This document shows, one piece after another, positions 15,601 to 56,338 of a stretch of DNA of 64,000 nucleotides (positions are counted from its first letter, which is position 1; each line of letters opens with the position of its first letter). This DNA comes from Branchiostoma lanceolatum. Its lineage: Eukaryota; Chordata; Leptocardii; Amphioxiformes; Branchiostomatidae. The stretch lies in contig NC_089726.1 of assembly GCF_035083965.1 (NCBI RefSeq), positions 9,739,501 to 9,803,500 of the forward strand. The letters run 5' to 3'. The translations under genes were made by a program, and so were the position numbers. The notes under the pieces are model-generated. The model ran no database searches, was not told the origin of the DNA, and saw only the letters and a list, made by a program, of their open reading frames with translations.

Positions 15601-18488
15601 TCGTCGCGCGCGGGTGACGCTCCGTCAAAACAAATCCGCTGGTGGTCTAGCGCGGCCACCGAAAATAGGCAGAAACACACAGGAGGACTTAGCACCTTCG
15701 TTTATGAGGGCAATTGTGAAAATCTTTTGTTACAAATTGTTCGAACATTGAAACATTTGGATAGATGGTTTGAAACTGTTCTAAATAAAGAGATTTTTGT
15801 GTAGTTACGTTCGAAATGTTTCCAACGTGTGTGAAATAAGTTCAAACATGTTATAAGTTTCAATTCTAATTGTTTGAACACTTTAGAACTATTGTGACTT
15901 AGACATTCTTTTAATCAAAATAGTTCAAACATATTACAAATATTATATTAAAACCCTCTCGGTGACTTTGAATTGACTCAAATATGTTGTTTTTGGTCAT
16001 TTCCTTCGTCTCCTGTCAAATCTTCATATGTATACTATGGAAAACTTCATTCTTCCCTGGGGTTGATCTTTTTTAATTCAATTTTGAACTGGGTTGATTA
16101 TGCGCAAGAGTGTAATTTTCAGCGGATATTTTTCGACTGGTTTACATGGAAATGGCACGGGATATCCCATTCTTGCAAGGGGAGGATTATTTAATTATTT
16201 CTTTCAATTTTGAGCTGGAATGATTATGAAAAAGTCCATTTTTTAGCAGAAGTGTATTTGTTAATCAATTAGTGGATATGGTTGTGGACTGGTCCATATT
16301 GTGTTGAGGTGCTACTGGAAGACTCAATTTTGGACTGGGGTGATTCATTTTTTTAGTGCAAGTATTTTAGAATGGTCCATTGTTATTTTGGGAGAGTCCA
16401 TTTTTTGCATGGCGAGGAGTATGGCTAAACATGCTGTATTTGCTCGCAAATGTTGCCTTTCTAGTTGCCTTCATTTTTTCTCAGGTGCTAAGTCGCCTGG
16501 AGAAGATGGAGTTGAGGAGACAGCTGAGTAAGGAGGGAGTCAGTCTCATGTCTTCATTATCATCTTCACCAGGTCTGTATTCACACCATTTACATCATCA
16601 ATCTGTAAAAGAGAAATTTCTATCTATCAAAAAAAATCATTTAGTTCAAATTGATCTTTTATACTAACGTGGAGTATTGCTATGCTTTTTTTAAATCACA
16701 GATGTTCCACGAAGAACACGTCAAGAGCCACAAGAGAGTGAGTCTCCCAGTCTGGCCAGTGGGTCTCCAATTGTTGGACCCTCACTATGCCCCCCATCGT
16801 CTCAGTCCTCCTCACACGAGCCTATTGAGTCTGATGAGCTGGCTTGGAACAAGGAAGACAACAAAAAGGATGCAGTTGGTCACTACGGAAGCCAAAATGG
16901 GGGCCAGCTACCGGTGGAGAGAGCAACAGGCCAGCCAAGTAACAGCTACCCATCCCAGAGCACCATCAGCACTGATCTGGAATCAAACGGTGTGGTCAGT
17001 CACCAGCAAAATGTGGAAAATCTAGCTAGCCCACCTGACACCAAAAAAGCGGAGAACAGAGGCAGTCTTCCCCTTCCTTCGGGCAAACAAGATCTGAACA
17101 CTTCCGGGGCAGTCGTGACAGGCAAAGAGCAGTCAAAGGATGAAGAGCAAGACAGAGATTCACTGAAGAAGGGAGACCTCCGACCCAACAGGCCAGTTGA
17201 GGCCTGGATGCCTGACAGCATCCTCAGGAACACAGAAGGGAAGGGGGGCAAGTCTGCCGCTGAGGAGAAGTTTCCATCCAAGGATGTTTCTAAGCTTGAC
17301 AACATGTCCTCTCCATCAAGGCAGCCTGGAGGAAGGAAGCTGAGTCCGTGTGAGTCAGACGACTGTCCTTCGATGGCCCGGCCAGGACAGTCCCCTGTCG
17401 AGTTTCATGCAAAGGCAGATGTGGAAAACATGGTAAAACCACAGGTTAACCAACCAGCCAACACTGCTGGAAGTTATTCTGTAGTCTCGCCGTCAGAACA
17501 GCCAGCTAGAATCACCCCAAGTAGGGAAGGGCTGGAGTCCACAGGAAGGGATGGTGATTTGGTACCGTCAGGGATGGCAGGTAGTCCAACTGACAAGAAC
17601 CACAGGCAACATTTCCTGCCTGCATACCCACCTGGATATGGTCCACTAGATGACAAAGCATCTCGCTACCCTCCGGTTCCTTACCCTGGGGGACAGTGGG
17701 GATATCCTCATCATCAAAACCTGCCCGCAGGTGAGGCTGGCATGTCACCTGCACCTCAGAATGGTTACCCAATGGTCTATGGAGTAACTCAACCGTATGG
17801 GCCACATTTCGGGCAGACATCACCAGCTGTGGGTCCAGCGGAAGTGCCATACTTGCCCCATAACAATATGCCATACGGTCCTCATGCATTCCTTCCTCAA
17901 TATCCACCGTATGACATCCCCCCATCACAACATCAAAGAGCTGACATTCAAGACCCCTACCCACAGTACGTCCCGGAACCTCACAGAATGTACCCAGGTC
18001 GTCCTCCCACAAGATTCAACATCTGTCCCCCTTCGCCAGACTCTAGTTGCTCTAACCAACAGTCCACAGCATCCTCATCCTCCTCCCAGAGTAGCAGCCC
18101 CCAGTCTTCCGTTTCCCAGGAGGGCTCCTCAGGTTGCACGACCTTCACAGACAGCAGCAGTGGTCTGTCCAGCCAGACAACAGCAGAACCAAACTCGGGA
18201 CTGTCCGGGGATGTCACCAGCTCCATGTCTCTTCCAGAAACGTCATCCGTCGAAAGTCTTCCAATGTCTGACGAGCGAAGCATTCGCTTTACCCCAGAAT
18301 TCAATGAGGCTCGTAACAGGCTGATGCAAGACATGAAAGACTACGATGAGGGCAGGCTTAACTCCGAGCAGTGTTTTGGGAACATTCCATCAGAAAGTGA
18401 CTCCTTGGGTGAACTGTCACTGGAACAGTCTGAGACTGGGAGCAGCAGGGTGCCTACTGAGGACAGCGATGACAGCACCTCATGTTAA
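6656..18488 (+). CDS. IRAK1: IRAK/Pelle-family death-domain serine/threonine kinase (12 exons, 1147 aa)
   Basis: Kinase that links MyD88-type receptor complexes to TRAF6 in Toll/IL-1R signalling. Exons: 6656-6818, 6944-7129, 10344-10466, 10695-10877, 11149-11318, 11814-11999, 12425-12543, 12934-13135, 13411-13476, 13823-13993, 16485-16572, 16702-18488; phases join without a stop. Residues about 45-116 resemble a death domain (HHWEDVAGRLDY). A Pro-rich linker (LPLPGPPPPMLPG) precedes the kinase: glycine loop GEGTFGRVF, AVK lysine, catalytic HGDVKSSNILLD, DFG, then GTTAYMAPEY. HGD rather than HRD is IRAK1-like. The 600-residue tail is rich in Pro, Ser and Tyr and contains PIESDE (16821-16838) and PTEDSD (18453-18470), both fitting the TRAF6-binding PxExx(acidic) pattern. 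The IRAK gatekeeper Tyr is Thr here (codon 11952-11954). Polyadenylation signal AATAAA at 19057-19062. Family certain; the IRAK1-versus-other assignment is inference. Confidence 0.92.
7289..7295 (+). promoter_or_regulatory. YY1-like ATGGCGG motif in IRAK intron 2
   Basis: The context AACAAGATGGCGGCGG is a close YY1 consensus, about 90 bases before a transposon-like element. The same motif type sits at the IRAK, DLD and ARPC4-side starts in this window, so an internal promoter is possible, though no supported coding exon follows. Confidence 0.3.
7375..8476. mobile_element. Non-autonomous transposon with subterminal CAGTACTGG repeats
   Basis: The ends are 26-bp inverted repeats (7375-7400 and 8451-8476) matching at 23 positions. 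Between them, on both flanks, the palindromic motif CAGTACTGG and variants such as CCAGTACGG recur many times (about 7410-7820 and 8310-8450). Such clustered subterminal repeats are typical transposase-binding sites. A short retroelement tail (about 7875-7960, 'ctttattgcaagttcatgcccgaaggc') lies inside. No transposase is seen. Confidence 0.75.
9022..9455. mobile_element. hAT-type MITE, 434 bp, with 8-bp target duplication
   Basis: The element starts TAGTGGTGCGGATCG and ends CGATCCGCAGCACTA. CTATTACT flanks both sides exactly (9014-9021 and 9456-9463). TAG-type ends with an 8-bp duplication fit hAT. Nested 'aagtccggactt' palindromes fill both subterminal parts. It sits in IRAK intron 2. Confidence 0.85.
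9559..9760 (-). mobile_element. Truncated antisense non-LTR retrotransposon 3' end
   Basis: A (GTTT)n run at 9559-9580, which is an AAAC tail on the minus strand, is followed by 'ttattaagatctccattagtgtac', a layout typical of a 5'-truncated retroelement. No reverse transcriptase remains. Confidence 0.45.
10930..11100. repeat. Minisatellite, about 43-bp unit, locus 1
   Basis: About four degenerate units of the form 'attcagcactaaggacagacctgtttatgtgtttgt' in the IRAK intron before exon 5. Related units recur at 14100-14340 and 21480-21770. Confidence 0.8.
14100..14340. repeat. Minisatellite, about 43-45-bp unit, locus 2
   Basis: About five degenerate copies of the same unit as at 10930-11100 ('gtattcagcactaaggacagacctgt'), in the IRAK intron after exon 10. 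Confidence 0.8.
14348..14377. repeat. 13-bp inverted repeat hairpin, 4-base loop
   Basis: Perfect arms tatgtttagccat (14348-14360) and atggctaaacata (14365-14377). The right-arm string agtatggctaaacat recurs directly at 16418-16432. Confidence 0.85.
15550..15804 (+). other. Unrecognised 84-codon open frame in CpG-rich intron segment
   Basis: Starts ATGCCGGATATTAGC, in the most CpG-rich part of the IRAK intron, and is not similar to anything I recognise. It has no clear domain. It could be a 5' exon of an inserted element or chance. Low confidence that it is coding. Confidence 0.15.
16030..16410. repeat. Three imperfect units of about 122 bp
   Basis: Strings 'tcaattttgaactggg', 'tcaattttgagctgga' and 'tcaattttggactggg' recur near 16078, 16204 and 16324, each followed by a similar 'tgatta/tgattc' segment. 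Confidence 0.55.
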
Positions 18489-21480: not shown

Positions 21481-21770
21481 ACCTTGTGTGTATGGATGGT
21501 GTTCAACACCAATGAGAGATCCGTTTGTGTGTAGGTGGGGTTCAGCTCCAAGGACGGGTATGTTTGCCTATGTAGATGACGCTTAGCTCCAAGGACAGGT
21601 ATGTTTGCCTGCGTGTAGGTGGTGCTCAGCACCAAGGACAGGTATGTTTGCTAGTGCAGATGGTGTTCAGCACCAAGGACAGGTATGTTTGCTAGTGTAG
21701 ACGGTGTTCAGCACCAAGGATAGGTATGTTTGCATGTGTGTAGATGGTGTTCCGAACCAAGAATATAATA
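21480..21770. repeat. Minisatellite, about 41-bp unit, locus 3
   Basis: About six units of 'ggtgttcagcaccaaggacaggtatgtttgctagtgtagat', intergenic between IRAK and DLD. The core 'ttcagcac.aaggacag' is shared with loci at 10930 and 14100. Confidence 0.85.
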
Positions 21771-22034
21771 TTGTACTTTTTTCAGCACTTCTTGCATCAA
21801 ATATAAACAGATCTTTATAGGATGCCATTCATAGTAGCATATCAGAGCAACCTTAACAGGACTTCTGACAGTCTAACTATGCAGACCCTTGTTGTACCCT
21901 TATTTAGGACATTTGACTATGGCTGGGTGGTTAAGCCTGGAAATGACAAGGTAAATTTGAATTTACATATTTGATTATAGTCAAGTAATTACAACACAAA
22001 CAAATGCACATGTATAGGTCTGACTTTTACCATT

Positions 22035-22797: not shown

Positions 22798-35380
<12,583 letters not shown>

Positions 35381-38076: not shown

Positions 38077-39327
38077 GTTCAGCAAGCGGCTGTGAAAGAG
38101 CAGGTCGACAGCGCAGCCCGGGAAACGCTGAGCGAACGTCTGTGGAAGGAGAATGCGGGCCTGGCTGAGGCAGCATGGAATACCCAGTACATTCAGGTAA
38201 GCGCGTCGGCACGGGTGGTATGATTAATGATAGGGTGTTTTCTCAAAGCACTCCATTCAAACAGTAACGGTAGTCGTGGAGACCTTATGCCAAATATCAA
38301 CTGCAAAATGTTTACTTCTATGCATCACATTTCAGGGCATCGCATTTGGAACTCTTGATCCAAATGACTATGGACACTACACGGTTCAGGACGCCGCATA
38401 CTGTCACGCTTCCACTGAGAACCTCAAGCTCCTCCAGGCTCAGAACCAGTGGTTGAATAACTTCTTTAAGGGCCAGTACGAAAGCTACAAGGATTACACA
38501 CAAGAGTTGTACGATCAGTGGTGTCTCAAGGTAATAACTTTTACTGTAGCTACCAAGCAATTGACAATTCAACGAACTTGAACTGTGTAAAATTAACGAA
38601 ACAGAATTTCTTCAACGTCGAACGTCAAATCTAAATCGAGAATACTAAGATGGAAATCAGTTGATGGCTATCCATGCGAGTTATGTTTATTCAACTTGTT
38701 GCTTTGTATTGCAAATACTCAGATAGTATTTCAGTGATGATGATTCATTCACATGTTAAACTTTTCTCTTCATACAGAACTCCAACATTTACATGTTCTG
38801 GATTGACGAGAACTGCAGTTACCACAGTGCAAAGGAGGTTGAGGCAGTTGTGAATGTATGTAGTGGCCTTGGGCTTATTGACCAGCAGAAGGCCAGGCAG
38901 ATCTACCGCGATTGCATGTATGGGGAAGTCAACTTCTTCAGGTGCGGTCCAATTTGCAACATTTGCCTTCAAAGGTGTTTTAAACACAAACTTTGTGTCT
39001 ACCTTTTATGATATCCGTGAAAACACTGATTTCTGGAGCACTCACATGGAAGCACAAGAAACGTTTTACAGATCTGCATAACCATCAAAACAACAGAAAT
39101 CAAGAAAATCATTGTAAAGAAATTGAAGCCATTATGCCACTTTGACATTTTAGTGATATTCTGTACACAATGCTGTTGATACGTCTGTTGTATGAAAATG
39201 CATACCTGTCTTTGACATTGCTCGATGTGTATACAATATAATTGTCTTGTCATATTCCTTCATCAGGTCCGCCTGTGGTGAAGAGCTCCTGCCTATCTCT
39301 CCAAAAGGTGTCAAAGGGCGTGCATAG
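38077..39327 (+). CDS. TenA/THI-4-like protein, copy A, lacking the Cys exon
   Basis: Member of the helical TenA (thiaminase II)/THI-4/PQQC family, which salvages thiamine fragments in microbes. Exons: about 38077-38196 (start not resolved), 38336-38530, 38778-38941, 39267-39327 (stop TAG). Visible are FGTLDPNDYGHYTVQDAAYC (the family F..Y..QD..Y motif), YDQWCLK, FWIDENCSYHSA and a final GEVNFF helix with its Glu. Relative to copy B, the 54-codon exon containing the IPCYRLWPYLA motif is absent: the intron 38531-38777 is only 247 bp and holds nothing similar. Exon phases stay in frame. Without that Cys-bearing segment the classical activity seems unlikely. Family 0.75, function unknown. Confidence 0.7.
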
Positions 39328-40820: not shown

Positions 40821-40993
40821 GAAAATGCCAATTCAAAAATACCTGGGGCAATAAAAATTTCGCTGGCTTGCATGTATGTCAAACAGACCATACATGTGTA
40901 ACAACGCAGTGCTCTGTAGACAAACATGCTCTTGTCTTGATCACAGTATCAGGGACAAAGTTCAAAATTAGATCGTCGGCGTGAAGTTGGAAA

Positions 40994-43959
40994 ATGGCCG
41001 CACCGATCCAAAAGGGCACGGACTATCACAAAACGTTTGGCGCAAAGGCGTATTTGACGGAGTATTTTGCCACGACAGAAGGTACCGAAGAAGGAGAATT
41101 CGACACACTGCTTCTAAAAGAATTCCACGAGATTTTCAACTCTGGTGAGACTTGATTTTTCCCCGTTCTATGGGATACTTGTATTGCCACGTCGTGTTTA
41201 TGATGTCATGCTTTGCGGTATGAAAATGATCATGTACAGTCCTCCGACCTGTTTAATTTTTGGCGACACAGATGGTATAGTATTGTGTACAGTTTGCAAG
41301 AATTCTAAGAATTGTACAGGAATTTATCCACAGGAATTTGTAGTCTATTGGTATGTTTAGATGTTAGTTCCTTGGACCTGGTATGGTCGAAAGTGAGTCA
41401 ACCCCTGTCCAGGTCTTTTCATCATCACCATTGCATTCCAAATGCTGTGTAGGTCGAATAAAACCAGGGAGTCGCCTCCTCGATGTTGGGACTGGTCCGA
41501 CCATCTATCAACTGATCAGTGCCAGTAGGCTCTGCACAGAGATCGTCTGCGCAGAGTACACTCAGGTACGTTTAAACATAATTCACACTTCAAAATTTAC
41601 CACTTATCCCGGAGGAATTGCCCCGGGCACTAGTATCAAATCAGGAGAAAATGATTTTCAATAGGCCAGATGAAAACATGTCATGTTCTTCATTTGTAAG
41701 ACGTTCGAGATGGTGATGTTGAGAATGATGTTGTTTCACACAGTTTGATCCTGCAAAGGTTTCTTTTTTCTACCTTAAACCATATCTTGGCAGAAGATGA
41801 TAGTAGAAGGGTTTAACCCCTCAGTAAAAACTTTATGGATCCTCTAAAGTGGTAACCTCTTGTAACAAGGCAATCAGAGATGGCAGACTTCACCTCCTTA
41901 CCCATACTGCTTCATGCCCCTCCAGTTCCAGACAAAAATAGCAGCTCTGAGGATGTACATTATATGAAAGCATGCCATGGGAATGACAGAAAGATATACA
42001 CTCAGACAAACAAGCAAAAAACAGTACTTAACTTCTTGGGGTGGGAATCTGTTAACATTCCAGGAGGACAATGACCCCTAGCACACATCAACGTCCACAA
42101 AGGTTTGGTACTAGTGACCTCTGCAGCTAGCCTGCATTGCCCAAAGGTACGTAATTAAAACTCCCTTCTGACTGACAATTTACTCAAACCTGCCCAGGGG
42201 CGCACCCGGGGAAACCACCAACTTAAATACCAGACCATCTACGCCCGTACAGACACATATATATTTTCAATAACGACCGGGCCTGCCTGGCTCGGTCGTG
42301 TTGAATATCCAACGGCAAAACATGAAAACATCACTTCCTGCTGTCCAAATGAGTTTTCCTCCAAATAGTTATCGCAGCATTGATATTTTGGAAGTGAAAG
42401 CTTACACTTCCTGGAGTATGTGTACAGTTAAGAAAACATTTTCATACCCTTACAATTACGAGGGGTACGAATAATTTTGTTGCCAGTTGCTTAAAGAAAC
42501 GTCACATTGTTTCATAGCATGATCATGATTGTGCCAACATGTGCGCTTTCGTTCCAGAATAACCGAGCCGAGATTGAGAAATGGATGAAGAAGGACCCGG
42601 ATATGCACGACTGGTCCCCCTTTTGAAAGTTCGTAGCTGGTCTGGAGGAAGATAGGTATGCTATCTGGCTAACTGTTTGCTGTCTTGTTGGGTTCAGCGC
42701 AAATAATGGCGTTATGTTCGCTAGGTACAAAGGTGGATAAAAAAAGTGAGGAGCCTCGTCCGGAATAAGGGGTATAGATCAAGATCTGGAGCATAACTAT
42801 ACATCACAAAGTCCAGACGTGGTGGACATTGATGGAATACTTTGTAATGTATAGTTATTCCAGGAAATATAAACCACACCCCTTTATTCCGGGTGAAATC
42901 TAACACGTTTTGATCCCCAATCCTACAACTGGCTGCTTTCAACAATGAAACTATGTTTGCCAGCTTATTTTGATCCTCTAGCACTTGTCCTACTGCTTTG
43001 TATTTACCTCTGATAACAGTTTCGGTACGATGACAAGTCAGTTAACATACCCAATTAAGAACATAGTGGCAACGAGTTCCACTCTACCGTCCCACGTAAG
43101 GCACGGCTATGGCTGGTATTAGATATTTAGATGTTGATCACATTCTTGTACAGCGGCTCGTGGGAAGCCCGACAGTCTCATCTCAGAGATGCTATAAAGG
43201 AGGTCATTCCTTGTGACGTCACCAAGCCAGATCCTTTTGCTCCTCGTCAGTATGAGGAGGTGAATGGAATTTTGTTGTTCTATTCTTTATCTAATTAGAT
43301 AATCAATAGGTCAAACGTTTCGATGTACAACCTTACCTTAGACCTTAGACTTGGCGGCGGACTTTGATGTACAAACCAATCTAAATAAACCTATTTCCGC
43401 ACGTGCCTTGAGTATTGTTAAGTCTCAAATAAAATCCTAATACCTAATCTCCAATCAGATTTTGGGCGAGGCTCAGTGTTTTGCACATTTTCTCGGCTTT
43501 TTATTTAGAAAATGTACAACTGAAAATGTGGGCCACAAGAAAGACCAATAAAATGCTTCAAAAACACACGTAAAACACCGAGTCGTACCGTAAATCATAT
43601 TGCTAATACCCACATCTTGACGTAACCAGTTCGACGTGGTGACCACAACCCTGTGCCTGGAGGCAGCGTGTCCGGACCGGGAGTCCTACTCGGCCGCTGT
43701 GCGCAGCATCACCCGCCTACTCAAGCCGGGCGGCACGTTCGTTCTCTCTGGAGTCACCAACCAGACCTTCTATACCGTCGGGGGCTACAAGTTCTTCACC
43801 CTTCCTATCGACAGCAGCTTCATGAGAGAAGTGTTTGAGAAGGCAGGATATGTCGATATTAGTATTAAGTCGTTCCCGGCTACAAATTCTGAGAACAACA
43901 CTGTGTCCGACTTTGACGGGTTTGTTGTTCTTGATGCTAAGAAAGCAGAGATTGAGTAG
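40994..43959 (+). pseudogene. NNMT/INMT/PNMT-like methyltransferase, copy 1, with premature TGA
   Basis: S-adenosylmethionine-dependent N-methyltransferase of the nicotinamide/indolethylamine/phenylethanolamine family, cytosolic. Exons: 40994-41144, 41453-41565, 42558-42655, 43154-43259, 43630-43959; 265 codons, like NNMT's 264 aa. Seen: N-terminal KGTDYHKTF, SAM motif LLDVGTGPTIYQ, then CAEYTQ, TTTLCLEAACPD, LLKPGGTFVLSGV. The frame is complete except for TGA at 42624-42626 (residue about 111), where copy 2 has TTT (Phe). All splice sites are intact, and exon 5 is nearly identical to copy 2. Either a recent pseudogene, an allele, or a sequencing error; two base changes make an error less likely. 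Confidence 0.8.
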
Positions 43960-44239
43960 TATGAATCTCTATCAATTCGAAAAAAGATATAGAGAAAGAA
44001 ACGCCAACGAGTGTGTGAAAATGTTAGATTAGAATTCTGGAGAAAAAACACGGTTGTTACAGCTTAATTCATGTTACAACAGTTGTTACACCATTTGTGA
44101 TCTCGATTTTCAAAAATATCGGCATCTTGTTTTGATTACATACATAAAATGACCTTTGTGTGCCAAGGGACATGTCTACGCTGCACAGAAAATCAAGACA
44201 AACAATTGGTATGTCTTTGAAATACTATTCGAATGAATG

Positions 44240-44360
44240 AATGCATGCATGGATGAATGGTTTATTATGACCGCTATGATTAGCTATAATAAGTATATCG
44301 CAGCCACTGGCTGAATTGCATACTTTTTACAGATAACATTCAAAACTAACTGTTGCTTTC
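44240..44360 (-). mobile_element. Retroelement-tail-like repeat downstream of copy 1
   Basis: 'gaatgaatgcatgcatggatgaatggtttattatgaccgctatgat' resembles an antisense LINE 3' end with a (GAAT)n tail. The same insertion is present at 51705-51810, so it predates the segmental duplication. Confidence 0.5.
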
Positions 44361-44739
44361 ATATGCAATTTACAACTTGACCATCTTAACCGTATAAGTA
44401 TTCTAAAATCATGATGAATACTAACTTTTACTAATACTAACTAAGTTTTAGACCAGGTAAGCTTGGGTATATGGTACTTATTCCGGACGACTAGAGCGTT
44501 ACGTTATTCAATGAAGATGTACTATGTTCAAAGTTACAATATGCATACCAGCTGTGTAGCAAAAGGTGAAATTATATAGTTTATCAAAATACATATAACT
44601 TGACGGATGAAGAGTACAGGACTATGTTGTACCTCGATTGGGTCTATATTCTATAGCTACATAACATTTTGTCAAGTTATCCGAAAAGAATACAAAACTT
44701 AGCAAAGTAGCAACGCATATCATCTTATTACCTTCGCCT

Positions 44740-45480
44740 AGAATGTTACATTTTCGTCAGTGTACGTGTGTGTGTGTGACTACATGTATGTGTGTCTGTG
44801 TGTCTCACGATAACTCCAGAATGCCTTGATTGATTGTCTTGATTTTTGTATGTGGGTAGGTCTTCTTGAGACTTCGAAATGATTAGATTTTGGGGCCCCC
44901 AGTGGCTTGCTATGGTACTGCAGTGGAACTTTCGGGTTCGATATCTAGCGTTCTGTACATGCTATGATCATAATTTTTGAGTGGTGGATAACGTTAGCTC
45001 TTGGAAGGGAGAGTAAGTTGGGAATAACTAAAGAAGGGGTCGTCATGATATTTGGTAAGTAGATAGCTTGAGTGATGGTTGACAAGATTGTATGTTAACT
45101 ATGCAAATCAGAAGCTAATGTGCATGATTAATGAGGAAAGTTTTAAAATTCGCTGGGTTTCATTATAGGACTCATAACCTTATGACATATGACATAACTG
45201 ACATATGACATAACTGAGAAAGAGGAAAATCAATAGATATCAATTATGCAAATGAATACCTAATTTGCATCATTAGTTGAAACATGCTATAACTCCATAA
45301 TGGTAAATGATGGGGATTTCCGTCTTGTAGCATTTGGAAGTTAAGTAGACATAATCAGATATGAATTATGCAAATAAGGGCCTCATCTACAGAATATACT
45401 AGGAAATACTACAAAAATTCTTTGCTGACATAAGAATTTCATACTTTGAGCAACTTGTATTATTTGGGTAGAAGATGATC
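44740..45480. repeat. Dispersed 'accttcgcc.agaa..tta' repeat family member
   Basis: Starts 'attaccttcgcctagaa', then (GT)n, 'ctcacgataactccagaatgcc', 'ttgggg.ccccagtggcttgctatggtactgcagtgg' and several 'ttatgcaaat..' segments. Related stretches are at 52200-52300, 55400-55680, 61150-62160 and 63760-64000. Confidence 0.6.
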
Positions 45481-45608: not shown

Positions 45609-47850
45609 TCAGGCCTGCAGTTGGTTGAAGACAGGTTGCCCCTTTCTCTCTTGGAAAATGAAATAACCAAGAGTCCCAAACAGCACTGCCACAACCACAC
45701 AAGCTACGACTACTCCGGCAACGAGCCCAGCGTTTACCCCATCATCACCGGCACCGGTGTTATCAACTTTGGCATACTCCCTGGCACATGAAGCATAGCT
45801 ACCACTGTCTGCGGCACAGAAGCGGTCGTGCCGACATGCGTGGAACCAGGCGTCACAGTAGTCAGCGCGGATGGGCATGCCCTCCATCTGCCACTTGTTG
45901 TGATTCGGGTCCGACTCGTTGTAGATGTGGGCCGGGAATTTCCGGTAGAAACCTGGAAGTTCACATACAAGTCTTCAGTGGAAAAGCATATGATTATCAA
46001 CGAATAGCGTGTTTTTTTCTATTCTATATATCGCCTCCCTGGTTTGACTGCTTCTTTGACAGACAGATCGAACGATTAATAGATAGATGCAAGACGGACA
46101 CTTCACTGTAGTTCACCGATAAGATTGAGATTGTGATTTTTGTAATACCTGCGTTCGGTTCACATTCGTACAGACAGGCCTCCTGCACGAAGAAGCGCTC
46201 ACAGGCTGAGCTGAGGGGACCACACCGGTCCCAGTGCCACTGCTTGCCGTACGCTTCCTTGATCTTCTGTACGGAGGAGACGGTGTCCTGGTGACAGCAG
46301 GAGTAGTCCTTCCAAGGATGGCATTCCGTGAAATTGTCAGGTTCTGGCCCTGGGGCTTCCTATCAGGAGACACAATGTTTGGTTTTGAAAGCTCAGTGGG
46401 GTGGTGCCAGTATGAGCGGGTAGAAGGGAATGGACTCGATTCGTACTGTTTGCACAATGTTCTGTTCACCATCGTTAATGAGACAATTTCAATGAATTTC
46501 ATAGTCAGTATTTAGCACTGGGAGTTAGTCGTGACCAAGGACATCTATGGTTGAACGTTGTTCGGAAATGTTGCCTGCTAGTCTTTGAAGTTAAAAAATC
46601 AAATTCGGCAATGTCACATTCTGATTGGATGCGATCAGGGGAGCGAACTTTAGCCATACACAAGACCAGAGGAGAGTGTTATTTTCTAAATGATCACATC
46701 TTTATGAGTACAAAATGAAACAATTTTGTTAAAATTATTCACATCTGGACAGATAAATTGACAATTTATAATCCAGGAATTGAGTAGTTTCATACAGACC
46801 CGTTGGTTGTATTGCATTTTGGGAATCAGCCCTTAAGTATTGGTTCCTATGAGATAATTGCTGGAGTTACAGGTCAGTTTTGGGGTCAACGCAATAGAAG
46901 AATTAAGTTGCTAAGGGTGGAAATTGATGAGCAACTATTCGCACACACGCTACAAACATTATATTACAAACATCGGACATAGATTTCCTAAGAGCCGCCA
47001 ACTGTGGTGAAGGCCTTTTTTTCAAGTCTTAAGTATAGGTTTCAATGGGATGGTTGACAAAGATCAAAGTCCATTTTTGACCCCAAACAAGCGGAAAATA
47101 CGGTTACCAGGGCTATAAGTTGACAAACAAGTATCTAGAAACATGTTACAAAGCTTAACCCTTCTTTAAGAGCCGCTAAGTTGAAGTTTGTCCAATGGTT
47201 GTTCGCGATATAACATATTATACCTAGCTGTAATTAATCTGAAGGATACCCGGGTTAACGTTACCAGAATATTGCCGCTGCCTATTCCATGTTCAAGGTC
47301 TAGCTGCCAATACAATTATGTTCTTGGATTCAGAAAAATACTATACACCGAACCAGAACACTCTCCTCTTGTGTCTTGTGTAAGGCTGTAAGCTAGAATA
47401 GGATGGATTTCTGTCTATATGATCCCAAACAGCGTCGACCTTGACCGGGAAGTGGTCGGGAGCAAAGTCGTGAGAAGGTCCTAAATGTGTGACAGGGGCA
47501 TTACTGCATGGTGGGGTTGGGGACACTAATAAACGACATACACTCCACCCATAACTAGTTGTATCCTATACAAAACAAACCTTATGGAAGTACTCCAAAT
47601 GGCAATCATCAGCTGAGGGCCATCCGAGTCTCTCAGCCACTTTGTTATTAGGATTCTCGGCTTCAAAGAACCACATGGTGAAGGCCCTGCTGAGGTTCGT
47701 CTCGTACACGAAGGCGTCGTCCCACATCTTCTCGCACAGTTCCTTCCCGCTGGGGTAGATGTCCTCGAACATCCTACAGGGTACGTCGTCTGCCGACTGA
47801 GTGGTTGGAGCAGCCAGCACGATCATGACGACCAAGATGGAGGCATTCAT
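45609..47850 (-). CDS. Folate-receptor-family type I membrane protein, permuted module order (274 aa)
   Basis: Member of the folate receptor/riboflavin-binding family, expected to bind a vitamin or ligand at the cell surface. Exons: 47581-47850, 46149-46359, 45609-45952. A signal peptide (MNASILVVMIVLAAPTTQSA) leads into LCEKMWDDAFVYET..TMWFFEAENPNNKVA, which matches the C-terminal module of vertebrate folate receptors (LC..IW..S...QMWF..A.GNPN..VA). Then FHKEAPGPE..ECHPWKDYSCC, W.WDRCGPLS.AC..FF.QEACLYECEPN match the vertebrate N-terminal and middle parts, and DYCDAWFHACRHDRFC follows. A C-terminal membrane helix (VAGVVVACVVVAVLFGTLGY) and 15-residue cytosolic tail replace a GPI signal. N-glycosylation sites include NFT and NES. 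It lies between the two methyltransferase copies and is not duplicated. Confidence 0.85.
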
Positions 47851-48300
47851 GGCGAACCGGCGATATAGGCCTGTTATATGTGAAAAACATGTAAGAAAGG
47901 ATAATGTGTATTTTGTTCTTCAAGCTGACTTTGCCTTTACTTGCGCAGTGCATGCGTATCTTGAACTCAGTACATGAAGTAAATGCCTTTAGTTATAAAG
48001 AAAAGCCCTACGTCTGTACTATTCACACCAAAATAGATATATACGATTACCTGCCACTTGTTACTCCAATAAGAAAGTTGAAGTGATGACCATAAACGTC
48101 ACCTCGCTGAGCCTTCTCGGTGTACATGTGGTACTAGGTCAATATTTGAATTGTGGCCGTGGGGTGGAGCTAGAGCATAGAAAAATAAAAGGCCGTGTTT
48201 ATGACAGGTTGCGAGTGTGCATAATGGAAGACTTCGATACTTTTTCGACCGTCCACCAATATGTCAATTCGACACTCGATCTGGCGGAACGTTGAAGTGG
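47851..48300. other. Intergenic between folate-receptor-like gene and duplication copy 2
   Basis: Divergent 5' regions of the two genes share this 450-bp gap. No clear promoter motif is seen. Confidence 0.4.
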
Positions 48301-51300
48301 AAAATGCCAATTCAGAAATACATGGGGCAATAAAAATTCCGCTGGCTTACATGTATGTCAAACAGACCATACCTGTGTACCAACGCAGTGCTCTGTAGAC
48401 AAACATGCACTTAACAACAGTATCAGGGACAAAGTTCAAATTGTCAGCGTGAAGTTGAAAAATGGCCGCACTGATCCAAAAGGGCACGGACTATCACAAA
48501 ACGTTTGACACAAAGGCGTATTTGACGGCGTATTTTGCCACGCCAGAAGGTGCCGATGAAGAAGGAGAATTCGACACACTGTGTCTAAAAGAATTTCACG
48601 AGATTTTCAATTCTGGTGAGACTTGATTTTTCCCAGTTCTATAGGATACTTGTATTGCCACGTCGTGTTTATGATGTCATGCTTTGCGGTATGAAAATGA
48701 TCATGTACAGTCCTCCGACCTGTTTAATTTTTTGCGACACAGATGGTATAGTATTGTGTGCAGTTTGCAAGAAGAATTCTAAGAATTGTACAGGAATTTA
48801 TCCACAGGAAGTTGTAGTCTATTGGTATGTTTAGATGTTAGTTCCTAGGACCTGGTATAGTCGAAAGTGAGTCAACCCCTGTCCAGGTCTTTTCATCATC
48901 ACCATTGCATTCCAAATGCTGTGTAGGTCGACTGAAACCAGGGAGTCGCCTGCTTGATGTCGGGAGCGGTCCGACTATCTATCAGCTGATCAGCGCCAGT
49001 AGGTTCTGCACGGAGATCGTGTGCGCAGAGTACACTCAGGTACGTTCACTAGTGCCGTCTGCAGCCTTAAGATACGTAACTTATGCTAGGGTCACATTTC
49101 CTAACCGGGACCCGGCCGGGCTGTTTGCGGAAACGAAAAATCAAAATGTATGTCAATAATTTTGCACAAGCTATGCTCTTAAATAATTTTGGCTACGTTT
49201 TGTGTTTTTGTTGTCTTTCATATCATACTTTTCGTTCCCAAAGACTGTCCTGCCGGGCCCCGGATTTGTAATGTGACCCTAGCATTAAACTCCCTTCTGA
49301 CTGCCAATTTATTTAAATCTGCCCAGGGACGCACCCAGGGCAACCAACGACTTAGATACCAGATCATCTACGCCCGTACAGACACATATAGATTTTCATT
49401 TTTTCCACTTACAATTCCTGAATGGTGCGCCCTACCTGGCCCGGTTGTGATGTCTCCCACAGTTGAGACATTCCGAGCCAGTCTGGAGTCCTGCCCGCCT
49501 TAGCCGGGGACCCCCCCCCCCTTACTTTGCCGGGGGTAAACCCAAGTTGAAGTTGAGGTTCCTTGGAGGGACAGATATGAAGTGCTCAGAGTCAATTAAT
49601 TGAATAAGTGTTGATTACCGCCAACGACGTCCCTGCGCTGCTAACGAATATCAAAAATATAAGAGCAAAACTTGAAAACATCACTTCCTGCTGTCCAAAT
49701 AAGTTTTCCTCCAAAGAGTTATCGCGGCATTGATATGTAGGAAGTAAAAGCTTATTATTACCGAATAAAAATCATCAATCAATCAATCATCAATCAATTA
49801 AGGCCTTTCACTTTCTGACGTACGTGTACAGTTAAGAAAACATATTCATACCCTTACAATTACAATTACGAGGGGTATGAATGATTTTGTTCAACTTGCT
49901 AGTTGCTAGTTGCTGTACATGGTTTCTTGTGCCAAAATGTGTGCTTTCGTTTCAGAATAACCGAGCCGAGATTGAGAAATGGATTAAGGAGGACCCGGAT
50001 ATGCACGACTGGTCCCCCTTTTTTAAGTTCATAGCTGATCTGGAGGAAGATAGGTATGCTATCTGGCTAACTATTTGCTGTCTTGTTGGGTTCAGGGCAA
50101 ACAATTAATAATGGCGTTATGTTCGCTAGGTACAAAGGTGGATAAAAAAAGTGAGGAGCCTCGTCCGGAATAAGGGGTATAGATCAAGATTTGGGGCATA
50201 ACTATACATCACAAAGTCCGGTGTGGCCATTGATGGAATACTTTGTATTGTTATTTCAAGAAATATAAACCATACCCCTTTATTCCGGGTGAAATCTAAA
50301 ACGTTTTGATCCCCAATCCTACAACTGGCTGCTTTCAACAATGCCAGCTTATTTTGATCCTCTAAGCACTTGTCCTACTGCTTTGGGAATAAGGCCAAGC
50401 TTGGTAGTTACCTCTGATAACAGTCTCGGTGCGATGACAAGTCATTGAACATACCCATGAAGTACATAGTGGCAACGAGTTCCACTCTACCGTACCACGT
50501 AAGGCACGGCTATGGCTGGTATTAGATATTTAGATGTTGATCACATTCTTGTACAGTGGCTCGTGGGAAGCCCGCCAGTCTCATCTCAGAGATGCTATAA
50601 AGGAGGTCATTCCTTGTGACGTCACCAAGCCAGATCCTTTTGCTCCTCGTCAGCATGAAGAGGTGAATGGAATTTTGTTGTTCTACTCTTCATTTAATTA
50701 GATAATCAATAGGCCAAACGTTTCAATGTACAACCTTACCTTAGACCTTAGATCCTCCCGCAACTTTGTTGCATAGGTCGACTTGGCGGCGGACTCAGTG
50801 ATGTACAAACCAATCTAAATAAACCTATATCCGCACATGCCTTGAGTATTATTAAGTCTCAAACAAAATCCTAATACCTAGTCTCCAATCAGATTTTGGG
50901 GGAGGCTCAGTGTTTTGCACGTTTTTCTCGGCTTTTTATTTGGAAAATGTACATCTTTCCAGTGGTTCGCTTTTAAGGAGGTACCACCGTGCGGAACTGA
51001 AAATGTGAGCCACAAGAAAGACCAATAAAATGCTTCAAAAACACACGTAAAACACCGAGTCGTACCGTAAACCATATTACTAATACCAACATCTTGACGT
51101 AACCAGTTCGACGTGGTGACCACAACCCTGTGCCTGGAGGCAGCGTGTCCGGACCGGGAGTCCTACTCGGCTGCTGTGCGCAACATCACCCGCCTACTCA
51201 AGCCGGGCGGCACGTTCGTTCTCTCTGGAGTCACCAACCAGACCTTCTATACCGTCGGGGGCTACAAGTTCTTCACCCTTCCTATCGACAGCAGCTTCAT

Positions 51301-52290
51301 GAGAGAAGTGTTTGAGAAGGCAGGATACGTCGATATTAGTATTAAGTCGTTCCCGGCTACAAATTCTGAGAACAACACTGTGTCCGACTTTGACGGGTTT
51401 GTTGTTCTTGATGCTAAGAAAGCAGAGATTGAGTAGTATGAATCTCTATCAATTCGAAAATGTGATATGACCCAAATAATAGAGAATGAAACGCCAACGA
51501 GTGTGTGAAAATGTTAGATTAGAATTCTAGAGAAAGAAAACACGGTTGTTACAGCTCAATTCACCATTTATGATCTCGACTTTCAAAAATATCGGCATCT
51601 TGTTTTGATTACATACATAAAATGATCTGTGTGTGCCAAGGGGCACTCCTACGCTGCACAGAAAATCAAGACAAACAATTGGTTTGTCTTTGAAATGCTA
51701 TTCGAATGAATGAATAAATGAATGAATGGATGAATGGTTTATTATGACCGCTATGATCAGCTATGATAAGTATATCGCAGCCACTAGCTGAATTGCATAC
51801 TTTTTACAGATAACATTCAAAACTAACTGTTGCTTTCATAGGCAATTTACAAATTCACCATCTTAACCGTATAAGTATTCTAAAATCATGATGAATACTA
51901 ACTTTATAAGTTTTAGACCAGGTAAGCTTGGGTATATGGTACTTATTCTGAACGAATAACAGAGCGTTACGTTATTCAATGAAGATGTACTATGTTCCAA
52001 GTAACAATATGCATACCAGCTGTGTAGCAAAAGGTGAAATTATATAGTTTATTAAAATACATATACTAGTAACTTGACGGATGAAGAGTGCAGGACTATG
52101 TTGTACCTCGATTGGGTCTATATTCCATAGCTACATACCATTTTGTCAACTTACCCGAAAAGAATACAAAACTTAGCAAAGTAGCAACGCATATCATCTT
52201 ATTACCTTCGCCTAGAAGGTTATGTTGTCGTCAGCGTTCGTGTGTGTGTGTGTGTGGCTGTGTGTGTCTGTGTGTCTCACGATTACTCCA
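48301..52290. repeat. Segmental duplication, copy 2 (about 4 kb)
   Basis: Counterpart of 40822-44827. It contains extra sequence in intron 2 (about 49040-49300 and 49490-49860) not present in copy 1, and like copy 1 ends in the (GT)n-rich repeat near 52240. Confidence 0.9.
48462..51436 (+). CDS. NNMT/INMT/PNMT-like N-methyltransferase, copy 2 (266 aa, intact)
   Basis: Transfers methyl from S-adenosylmethionine to an amine or pyridine nitrogen; the acceptor is unknown. Exons: 48462-48615, 48927-49039, 49956-50053, 50557-50662, 51107-51436; all phases agree and 801 nt give 266 aa. It has KGTDYHKTFDTKAYLTAYF, SAM motif LLDVGSGPTIYQ (as in NNMT), CAEYTQNNRAEIE, WSPFFKFIADLE, TTTLCLEAACPD and KPGGTFVLSGV. 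It differs from copy 1 in having an uninterrupted exon 3 and one extra codon in exon 1 (ADEEGEFD). Identity of exon 5 between copies is almost complete, suggesting recent duplication or gene conversion. Confidence 0.92.
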
Positions 52291-52299
52291 GAATGCCTG

Positions 52300-53480
52300 G
52301 ATCACCCCGACCAATCGATCGATTTGAAACTCATATTCGAATCAACCATGACCCGACAAATCGCTTTCTAAATTGCCTTAACGACTGACTTAATCTGACA
52401 GACCAAACTCGCCAGTGAGATGCTGAAAGGTGTCAGCTTTCAAAAGATATTTTCAGATTGATAATTGTGGCACTTTGGAAGTGATAGAAAGTATCCGCGA
52501 TTTAACGTTTAAAAATATAGTTTCTACTACTTTTCTTTACAAAGTTTTGTGCCTTGCTCTTTTGAGTTGTCTTGTCCTGCAGGACTTATTAAGATGTCTT
52601 AGGCCCTTTTTCCAGCATTAAACATGATTTAAAAGGTCACACTGCTTACATCCATTGTAATGATTGAAGAGCAAGAAATAACTTGACATACAATTCTATA
52701 TATTTCAGTGATGCTACACTGAAGGCAACGTAGTGGAACACAAATTATCAGCACTGGGGATGTATTGTAGTGCTGCATTGTTTACACTGGGAAGTTCGGA
52801 AATGCGAAAACACGCAGACAAGGCAAAACAATACTCCACTCTCTTAGTTTTTGATTATGAGAAATGTGTACTCAAAGCTGGACCTTTGAAACCCTATTGT
52901 CAACTTTATACCGTCACTACTGCTGACTCAGACGTGGTGTGCATCGTAAACACTCCAGAGAAACGTGATGGCCTCAACTATCACGGCCTTAGCAGGGGGA
53001 GGGAGCACAAATAGGAGGCCTTCCAAAAACCTTGGGTGAATGAGGAGTGGATTGCAAAGATAGCAGAAGAAGAAATATGATGATCGGTTAAAGAAATTTG
53101 AGAGAGAAACATGGGTAGCAGTAGAGAGAGACAAAAAAACACGATAAACATTTCGCACAAACCTTTACAGTCCTTACCGTTAAATGGACCATTTAAAATT
53201 GATTTATGCCCATATCATATGTTCTCGAGCAAACATTGCGGGTCCAGTCTTAGGGTTGAATAACGAATATCAGTCTATCAACATGTCGGCTAGGTAAGTT
53301 CCACTTTGTACTTGTCTTCTGAGATTATGAATAACCGGGATTGTTCTGTAAATTCCGGAATCCATATTAACTCCAAATCATAAAAGCTTGAGTTTGGGAT
53401 TATGTTGTTGATGCTAATCTTAACAACTCATATTGAAGTGATTACGTTCGACGAACAGGGTATGATTAGGGGTGGGGCAG
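52300..53480. other. Intergenic with dispersed repeat fragments
   Basis: 52600-52640 ('cattaaacatgatttaaaaggtca') resembles 57100-57130. 52725-52850 ('acaaattatcagcact.aggatgtattgtagtgctgcattgttt') resembles 58830-58985. No gene is supported. Confidence 0.5.
52725..52850. repeat. Dispersed 130-bp repeat, copy 1
   Basis: Shares 'ggatgtattgtagtgctgcattgtttacactgg' and 'aggcaaaacaatactccactctct' with 58830-58985, and more weakly with 58640-58740. Confidence 0.75.
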
Positions 53481-53980: not shown

Positions 53981-56338
53981 AAAGGCATTGGTTCTGTTGG
54001 TAACGTTGCTTTGTCAAGCAACTGCGAAAGGGGAGCTCGACAGGGCTGCCCAGGATACGCTTACTGATCTTCTTTGGAAGGAGAATTCGGACCTGGCTGA
54101 CGCAGCATGGAAGACCAAGTACATCCAGGCAAGTCTTGACGTTGTAATGATTTGTTTTTTTTAATCACTTCATTTTGCCTGTCAGGCAGGCAAGTAACGG
54201 CAGACGTAGAACACTAAAAAGTAAACTTTCATTCTACACATCGCATTTCAGGGCATCGCATCTGGAACCCTCGATCCAAGGAACTTTGGAAACTACACAG
54301 TTCAGGACGCCGCCTACTGCAGCGCTAATACTGACAATCTGAAGTTCCTCATGGACAAGACTGGCAACGAGTCGTTGAAGACGTTTTTTGAGAGCCAGTA
54401 CGAAGAGTTCAGGAATGAAACCGAATCGCTGTACAATCAATGGTCTCTCAAGGTAAAGCGTGTTACCTGTTGGCAGCTACCAAGCTCGAAGAGTTGTGAA
54501 ATAGATTCAAATGAAATGAATTCTATTGAAAATTCAGTGGAAGTTTTTCTGAATGAACTAGACCATTCGTCACAGTGTATTTGCAAAGTAACAATACGCA
54601 TTCATTGTTGAAATCATCATTTGCGAAATCATCATAATATTTTGGACCAATTCCTATTCATTCTTCTTGTAGCCGGGTGGTTCAGACCTCGGTGCTGCTG
54701 CCAAATGGTACGTAGATGTGGAGTACAAGGTAGCGCACGAGGAGGACCCCCTGTACTACCTGGTGGCCATGATTCCGTGTTATCGACTGTGGCCTTACCT
54801 GGCCAACAAGATGCAAGCTGAGGGTGACGACAAGGTAAGGTTGAATCAGAACTAGTGCTTGACACTTCGCAACATACATGCACCATGAGTGTATAGGATG
54901 TTCTCCAAAGCAAAGATTGTTGATATCAATTTGTATGAATGGTTGAACCGTCGTGGAAACTGCCAAACATTTGGTTGAACAAGATCAGTTTATTTTTCTG
55001 TTTGCCAGAATGAACCATTCTTAATATTGACAAGAGAATACTCTTTTGTCCACTGACAAATTTCATTAATTCTAAACATTTCTTTGTAGTCAAGTCCAGA
55101 CCTTCTTGTAGACTGCTGTACTTCCTCAAACATCCAAACTTTCTATTCCAAAGATCAGAATGATTCAGCTATATGTTGGACTGGCCAGGGGCATGCACTT
55201 TGGACAGATGGCAATATATACCCATTATTTCCATCGTGTAAGAGACTCTCTTTGGGGTTATTCTTTTTAATGATCGATGAAACAGATGATTGATTCATAT
55301 ATGTCGATGTTCCTCTCTTTCTCACTTACCTATGTCACGTGGTTGAATTGTGCTATCATGGAACATATTGTATTTATAAGATTTTCTCATTGATTATACA
55401 AATTAGATCCTGATGTGCATAATTGCCACCTATGTCAATCATCACTGAAGCTACCAACATACCAATAATCACAACGATCTGTCAAGCACATTAGTGATCA
55501 TCTTTCAGAAATGGTAACAAAATGCGATGTTTCTTTGTTCAGTTATCCTTCAAAGATTTTAACAAAACACTCCTGTAGTTCCAGAACAAGATGCTAGGGG
55601 TCCCCAACCAATCCATCCAGCCGTTCTTGAGTTATATTGGTGACCAACAGAGACACACACACACACACACTGCCCAAAATATGACCTTCTTTGCAAAGGT
55701 AATGATCTATTCACTACGCGTTTTGTTCCTTTACAGGCCTCTAACATTTACAAGTTTTGGATTGAAGAGTATGGCAGCTTCAAATCTGCAGAGGGGGTGG
55801 AAAGTGAGGTGAACAAGGCTAGTGCTCTCATCGATCACCAGAAAGCCAGCCAAATCTACCACAGCTGCATGGTTGGGGAGGTGAACTTTTTCAGGTATGT
55901 TCCAATCTACAGTCTTCCATAGTCAAGTCGAATACCAACCCCAGTGACAGGAAAGAATATTTTCAGCTGCATGTAACACATATTTGGAAATGATGTAATA
56001 CATGCAACAGATGGAAACAGCTGCAAAGGTCCAAGATTAAATGCAAAAGTTTATCATTGATCCATGGAGCCCCATCATAAGTTGCAATCAATTCTTTGTT
56101 GTACCAAATCATATCCCTGCAATGTATATAGATCTATGTTGCAGCATTATACAAATTTCATGTGATTCCAACATGACATACATGTACATTGTCTGCTTGT
56201 CTCATGCTCTTAAGGTCTGTGTGCGACGAAGAGCTCCTACCTTTCCCTAAGAGGACTCGGGCACCCACCCCTCTCCACATCAGGGGAAGAAAGCTGAATA
56301 TACAAGGCTTTGAAGTTCTTAACTATATCAAGAAATAG
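53981..56338 (+). CDS. TenA/THI-4-like secreted protein, copy B (complete core)
   Basis: TenA-family all-helical protein; relatives hydrolyse thiamine breakdown products, but the animal role is not established. Exons: 53981-54128, 54252-54452, 54673-54834, 55737-55894, 56215-56338 (stop TAG). A first exon supplying the initiator was not identified: 53981 starts in mid-codon, and KALVLLVTLLCQATA reads as the rest of a signal peptide. Seen: GTLDPRNFGNYTVQDAAYC, YNQWSLK, IPCYRLWPYLA (conserved active-site Cys region), YKFWIEEYGSF and GEVNFFRS with the late Glu. The first listed intron has a GC donor (CAG|GCAAGT) where copy A has GTAAGC. Polyadenylation signal AATAAA at 56359-56364. Confidence 0.78.
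55395..55680 (-). repeat. Dispersed 'agaaggttatg' family fragment in TenA copy B intron
   Basis: 'cattgattatacaaattagatcctgatgtgcataatt', 'gatgctaggggtccccaaccaatccatccagccgttcttgagttat' and an (AC)n run match, on the opposite strand, the family seen at 44740 and 63760. Confidence 0.55.

Follow-up and report, generated by a model that had tools for sequence, protein, structure and literature searches.

A gene on the minus strand of the window (the whole 64,000-nucleotide stretch of Branchiostoma lanceolatum DNA that was analysed) encodes a folate-receptor (FR)-like protein, and judging by its sequence this protein quite probably represents a genuine natural circular permutation of the FR domain. 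Canonical FRs have the order N-terminal, middle and C-terminal module, whereas here the C-terminal module (C-module) comes first and is followed by the N-terminal module (N-module) and the middle module. The gene was rebuilt from the DNA as three exons at 45609-47850 (Table 1), giving a coding sequence of 825 nt and a product of 274 amino acids. In the encoded order, this product consists of a signal peptide, the FR C-module, the FR N-terminal and middle modules, a hydrophobic helix and a short tail. The end of the signal peptide was placed with the cleavage rule for such peptides. Both introns have GT/AG borders, and the GC content of the exons (0.533, 0.583 and 0.549) is higher than that of the introns (0.403 and 0.372) and the flanks (0.355 and 0.42); GC3 of the coding sequence is 0.67. 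The start ATG has a G at -3, and an in-frame stop precedes it at a distance of 23 codons. A candidate splice acceptor (TATAACAG/G) is found 20 nt upstream of this ATG, and neither AATAAA nor ATTAAA occurs in the 709 nt 3' of the stop codon, which makes both transcript ends provisional, with room for an upstream exon.

Table 1. Parts of the FR-like gene in window coordinates; a slash marks an exon border
Feature	Position	Strand	Content	Basis
Exon 1	47581..47850	-	270 nt, residues 1-90: signal peptide, FR C-terminal module, linker, first 8 residues of FR N-terminal module	open frame; FR C-module match E 8.7e-07
Signal peptide MNASILVVMIVLAAPTTQS	47794..47850	-	residues 1-19; putative cleavage site	read from sequence
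FR C-terminal module	47632..47787	-	residues 22-73, including Cys25, Cys39, Trp43	aligned to FR-alpha 172-227 and, from the neighbour of Cys25 onward, to FR-beta 147-200
New linker RLGWPSADD	47605..47631	-	residues 74-82, joins old C-terminus to old N-terminus	lies between both aligned stretches; best rotation points begin at residues 72-89
Intron 1	46360..47580	-	1221 nt	
Exon 2	46149..46359	-	211 nt, residues 91-160 and first base of 161: FR N-terminal module, CC pair, CLYEC motif (Tyr154)	acceptor GATAG/G, donor GCAG/GTATTA
Intron 2	45953..46148	-	196 nt	
Exon 3	45609..45952	-	344 nt with stop, rest of residue 161 to 274: FR middle module, stalk, hydrophobic helix, 14-residue tail	acceptor TTCCAG/G; middle module aligned as far as FR-alpha 154
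Probable transmembrane helix	45654..45728	-	residues 236-260	Kyte-Doolittle mean 2.85 across 19 residues from residue 237

Membership in the family is clear, as the protein scores 121.9 bits against the Pfam profile Folate_rec (PF03024), which has a gathering cut-off of 29.8. The order of the modules was examined with phmmer searches of 177,635 distinct PDB sequences, counting matches up to E 10. The whole protein gave 14 matches, and the top ten (E 3e-21 to 3.2e-13) comprise FR-alpha, FR-beta, JUNO and riboflavin-binding protein. Nine of these ten are aligned in two stretches; riboflavin-binding protein is aligned in one stretch only, without a match to the C-module when the query is in its native order. 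In FR-alpha the two stretches are swapped, with residues 82-208 of the FR-like protein on FR-alpha 36-154 and residues 22-73 on FR-alpha 172-227. Across the five alignments displayed, the stretch covering the N-terminal and middle modules begins at residues 82-87 and runs to 208, and the C-terminal stretch covers 22-73 (24-73 for FR-beta).

The original prediction had assigned exon 1 to the C-terminal module of vertebrate FRs and exons 2 and 3 to the N-terminal and middle modules, and searches with each part separately bear out both assignments. Mature exon 1 alone gave 15 matches at E 10 or better. The top nine (E 8.7e-07 to 0.003) fall on FR or JUNO chains, whose C-module gives the best stretch each time, and the remaining six are unrelated proteins (E 0.27 to 1.7). 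Exons 2 and 3 alone gave ten matches up to E 10, all of them to FR, JUNO or riboflavin-binding protein and all at the N-terminal and middle part. With tblastn, exon 2 is matched by this part of FOLR1 at 40.8% identity (E 3e-19). The matching part of exon 1 is small, with identity to FOLR1 at 17 of 52 aligned positions. Residues 20-80 score 78 (FOLR1) and 97 (FOLR2) against the FR C-module in Smith-Waterman alignment, which none of 5000 shuffles equalled in either case; the resemblance of exon 1 to the C-module exceeds chance. Against the N-terminal and middle part of FR the same residues score 41 (FOLR1) and 44 (FOLR2), equalled by 65 and 15 of 5000 shuffles, and the five phmmer alignments displayed for exon 1 also contain a second weak stretch at the middle module, of 2.6 to 5.0 bits. 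The idea that exon 1 is a copy of the middle-module helix was rejected on these scores, 41 and 44 against 78 and 97 for the C-module. An AlphaFold2 model of mature exon 1 alone is too uncertain to be informative (pLDDT 55.3, pTM 0.33) and was disregarded, although it draws a helix at GKELCEKMWD.

The third element of the prediction, that the join between exons 1 and 2 resembles the N-terminus of vertebrate FRs, is found in the alignments as well. The end of exon 1, CHLEYFHK, lines up with CMNAKHHK of FR-alpha, the start of exon 2, EAPGPE, lines up with EKPGPE, and phmmer aligns the whole of CHLEYFHK/EAPGPE across the join to CMNAKHHKEKPGPE of FR-alpha. The exon 1 donor, AAG/GTTTGT, is in phase 0, and the splice restores HKExPGPE; the GTTTGT itself is a weak fit to the donor consensus. 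The C-module and the first cysteine of the N-module lie in a single frame of exon 1.

The apparent permutation was put to a rotation test, in which the ectodomain was rewritten in silico in the canonical order and searched again. The match to FR-beta changed from 78.1 bits (E 6.5e-21) in two stretches to 85.9 bits (E 3.2e-23) in one stretch covering 14-200 of 207, and the match to Folate_rec, split in two for the native order, became continuous over profile positions 2-163 of 172, with 133.3 bits. Both stretches already count towards the native score, so the bit scores rise only modestly, and the weight of the test is in the collinearity rather than in the gain: the swapped stretches merge into one collinear match upon rotation, whereas the native order gives no single collinear alignment. 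When all rotations of residues 20-230 were compared with FOLR1 and FOLR2 by Smith-Waterman alignment, the best rotation raised the score from 222 to 274 (FOLR1) and from 203 to 268 (FOLR2). The best rotations begin at residues 72-89, between the modules. For an unpermuted control, FOLR2 against FOLR1, the unrotated order scores best.

It is rather unlikely that the exons are remnants of two tandem FR genes that only the original prediction has joined, the real proteins being canonical or the locus a broken duplicate. Lancelet gene models are error-prone, and Banyai and Patthy (PMC4967905) hold that errors of gene prediction lie behind many of the novel domain architectures of lancelets, a caution that applies to the FR-like gene model. 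The locus also shows active duplication, as the gene sits between two tandem NNMT-like genes, at 40821-44830 and 48300-52302. However, exon 1 begins with a start codon and signal peptide of its own, its single 270-nt frame covers both the C-module and the N-module start, the phase-0 join restores the FR motif described above, and exon 3 ends in a hydrophobic helix and a stop. In addition, tblastn and phmmer found no second C-module or other FR exon on either strand of the 64 kb. The next best tblastn matches in the window have E 0.42 for the C-module, by which a second C-module downstream was rejected, and E 0.64 for the N-terminal and middle part; the next best phmmer match of the whole protein has E 0.059 and falls in a frame at 16695-18485 that looks unrelated. 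Intron 1 was likewise rejected as the site of an alternative first exon. It contains ten phase-0 candidates that run from an ATG to a GT and encode at least 15 amino acids, and none of the ten closes with the Cys-x6-Lys motif that opens the N-module. One of them, 46793-46698, has a mildly hydrophobic start and ends in CTHKD, and two would leave an intron of 14 nt. An assembly artefact, with a misjoin within exon 1 that places the C-module ahead of the N-module start, is highly improbable: a single assembly is the source of the sequence, but the break would have to be in frame, within a coding exon, in the short linker, and would have to bring its own signal peptide. The permuted gene would be transcribed with the three exons as drawn.

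The cysteines can be followed through the rotated alignment. FR-alpha (FOLR1) has 16 cysteines in the compared stretch, and eight disulfides are described for FR in PMC4947182. The FR-like protein has 14 cysteines in the ectodomain and one in the hydrophobic helix. Thirteen of the 16 FR-alpha cysteines face a cysteine, 12 of them in the rotated alignment (C189, for instance, lies over Cys39) and C37 opposite Cys83 in the native alignment, a pair that was placed by hand. Of the remaining three, C169 is four columns off Cys216, in a loop that is shorter in the FR-like protein, and C135 and C209 face Arg189 and Ala56. The FR cysteine framework is thus present, with 13 of the 14 ectodomain cysteines on FR cysteines and one four columns off, and the pairing predicted from it is as follows. 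C135 and C209 of FR-alpha are, we assume, a disulfide pair (UniProt P15328), and with both unmatched cysteines being partners of each other one whole disulfide would be gone and seven of the eight could form; this also argues against remnants of two tandem genes. The FR-alpha pairs C89-C175 and C139-C189, which we likewise assume, have equivalents that would link exon 1 to exons 2 and 3, so two of the seven would join them. The C135-C209 pairing fits the C8-C12 pair that the ECOD paper (PMC4256011) gives for folate receptors and glypicans.

These cysteines bear on a further reading, in which nothing is permuted and exon 1 is a separate N-terminal mini-domain, with the domain of exons 2 and 3 closing without a C-module. 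This is quite improbable. Cys136 and Cys193 would then lose their partners, Cys25 and Cys39, which by the presumed FR pairing exon 1 supplies at aligned positions, and exon 1 fits the C-module far better than the rest of FR, although it is weakly like the middle module too. What speaks for such a mini-domain beyond this likeness is the amphioxus protein FrLRR, whose annotated Fr domain covers 34-165 and whose leucine-rich repeats (LRRs) begin at 188 (PMC10199209), so that little room is left for a C-module behind the domain. The FrLRR domain also begins too early to have a C-module in front. A permuted single domain would instead have a fold like that of FR-alpha, held by seven of the eight disulfides, two of which would tie exon 1 to exons 2 and 3.

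The ligand pocket was compared with the FR-alpha residues named in PMC4947182 and PMC7922218, for which residue letters agree at an offset of 22. The set used has 16 residues, namely 15 of the 16 cavity residues in one list of PMC7922218 and Trp64 from its other list; the sixteenth cavity residue, Gly137, faces Ser210 in the rotated alignment. Three of the 16 are identical (W64, Y85 and W171). Ten are changed, from FR-alpha to the FR-like protein: Y60 to Lys, F62 to Trp, D81 to Glu, W102 to His, R103 to Asn, R106 to Gln, W138 to Gly, W140 to Tyr, S174 to Ala and Y175 to Phe. W134, H135 and K136 face a gap, the position of which is uncertain in the short loop. In the sets given in PMC4947182, none of the five hydrogen-bonding residues (D81, R103, R106, H135 and S174) is identical, D81 being Glu, and two of the four stacking residues (Y60/W102 and Y85/W171) are. 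The FR-like protein does not have the full set of folate-contact residues of FR alpha and beta, and weak or absent folate binding is expected of it from this comparison. The ring-stacking pair Tyr85/Trp171 of FR is retained as Tyr154, from exon 2, and Trp43, from exon 1, and a ring sandwich in the FR-like protein would accordingly be built half from each of these exons. The sandwich of riboflavin-binding protein, Tyr75/Trp156, is presumably the same pair and would correspond to Tyr154/Trp43.

As the polar contacts to folate are lost and the stacking Tyr and Trp are kept, another planar heterocycle or a protein partner is likelier than folate. From these residues one may tentatively suggest that the protein takes up or senses a planar heterocycle, for example a flavin or a pterin other than folate. 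The main alternative to a heterocycle ligand would be protein binding, as in JUNO, which retains the sandwich Trp yet binds no folate (PMC4947182).

The original prediction had also proposed that a transmembrane helix replaces the GPI anchor. The Kyte-Doolittle mean, which peaks at 2.85 in the 19-residue stretch starting at residue 237, and the hydrophilic tail of 14 residues, QERKGQPVFNQLQA, which follows the hydrophobic residues 236-260, make a transmembrane helix likelier than a GPI signal. The product would be a type I membrane protein, located at the cell surface via this helix, with an ectodomain formed by an FR-family cysteine-rich domain in the order C-module, N-module, middle module. 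Since the permutation opens the chain between FR-alpha positions C169 and C175, the anchor would exit there instead of at the old C-terminus, and this relocation would reorient the ligand pocket with respect to the membrane. Putting these parts together, we lean towards a transcribed and working permuted member of the FR/FZ-CRD superfamily in a basal chordate. Its C-module would bring half of the sandwich and two cross-module disulfides, and the permutation together with the new transmembrane anchor would turn the pocket and change the ligand.

Several known proteins can be set beside this one. The FR-like protein is homologous to FOLR1 and FOLR2 (PF03024) throughout the three modules: after rotation, 59 of the 182 positions aligned with FOLR1 are identical, of which one was aligned manually. 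The ring sandwich of Tyr and Trp is shared as well, as is the greater part of the cysteine framework. The protein differs from both receptors in the order C-N-middle, in a probable transmembrane helix as opposed to GPI, in the absence of C135, C209 and the polar contacts to folate, and in a shortened WHKxWxW loop. Riboflavin-binding protein is homologous (6hce, E 1.4e-14 after rotation) and has the canonical order, as its in-order match shows; it is secreted, in contrast to the predicted anchoring of the FR-like protein. JUNO (IZUMO1R/FOLR4) is of the same fold family and has unconserved folate pocket residues (PMC4947182), but it has the canonical order and, by the same source, a GPI anchor. 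In the amphioxus proteins FrLRR, BbFR and BfFR the last exon likewise codes for the anchor together with part of the Fr domain, whereas these have predicted GPI sites and, in FrLRR, LRRs; the passages of PMC10199209 seen for this comparison report no permuted order for any of the three. The circularly permuted GTPases called cpRAS show the same kind of event within a domain family, in a GTPase as opposed to a disulfide-rich extracellular domain (PMC2430557).

No report of a permuted folate receptor was found in the open-licence literature among the matches listed, as judged by titles, the starts of abstracts and passages. In a scan for relatives with exon 2 only, 17 pattern matches turned up in viral contigs and 112 in prokaryote genome contigs, and tblastn confirmed none of them. 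To our knowledge, it is rare for a single animal receptor domain with many disulfide bonds to have undergone natural circular permutation. On balance, the FR-like gene is most probably a real, uncommon rearrangement of a known family. If this is true, new termini in the C169-C175 loop are compatible with the FR fold, which would provide protein engineers with a natural design and would allow one to test how the position of the anchor sets the orientation and specificity of FR-type receptors.

With regard to its origin, the canonical order is probably ancestral and the permuted order derived, as far as these sequences can tell. FR, JUNO and riboflavin-binding protein all align in canonical order with the rotated query in phmmer, and the cysteine patterns of HHIP (PMC8660895) and the glypicans (PMC4256011) agree with the canonical order; this distribution is the reason for considering the permuted order derived. 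An ordinary FR gene that was duplicated and then rearranged is its probable source, and local duplication is a plausible source. The two neighbouring genes mentioned above are on the plus strand and belong to the NNMT/PNMT/TEMT family of methyltransferases (Pfam), and blocks of their DNA are 87-92% identical.

Several other features were noticed in the window. Three mir-2060 precursors lie head to tail at 21484-21778 on the plus strand, one with 85.5 bits and two with 49.1 and 48.1 against an Rfam gathering score of 54.5; the match above the gathering score is at 21603-21694. A miR-2060c is tabulated for Branchiostoma belcheri in PMC5650284. Two paralogous stretches on the plus strand, 38083-38558 and 54015-54485, are 69% identical in DNA, and their frames share GTLDPxxxGxYTVQDAAYC; Pfam gave only sub-threshold matches for these frames near 38 kb and 54 kb. 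An inverted pair, 23747-24234 and 60482-59994, is 97% identical over 489 nt and may consist of copies of a transposable element. A frame at 25557-28601 on the plus strand resembles a non-LTR retrotransposon, with reverse transcriptase and endonuclease/exonuclease domains, and the frame at 12866-13279, also on the plus strand, contains a fragment of a protein kinase domain.
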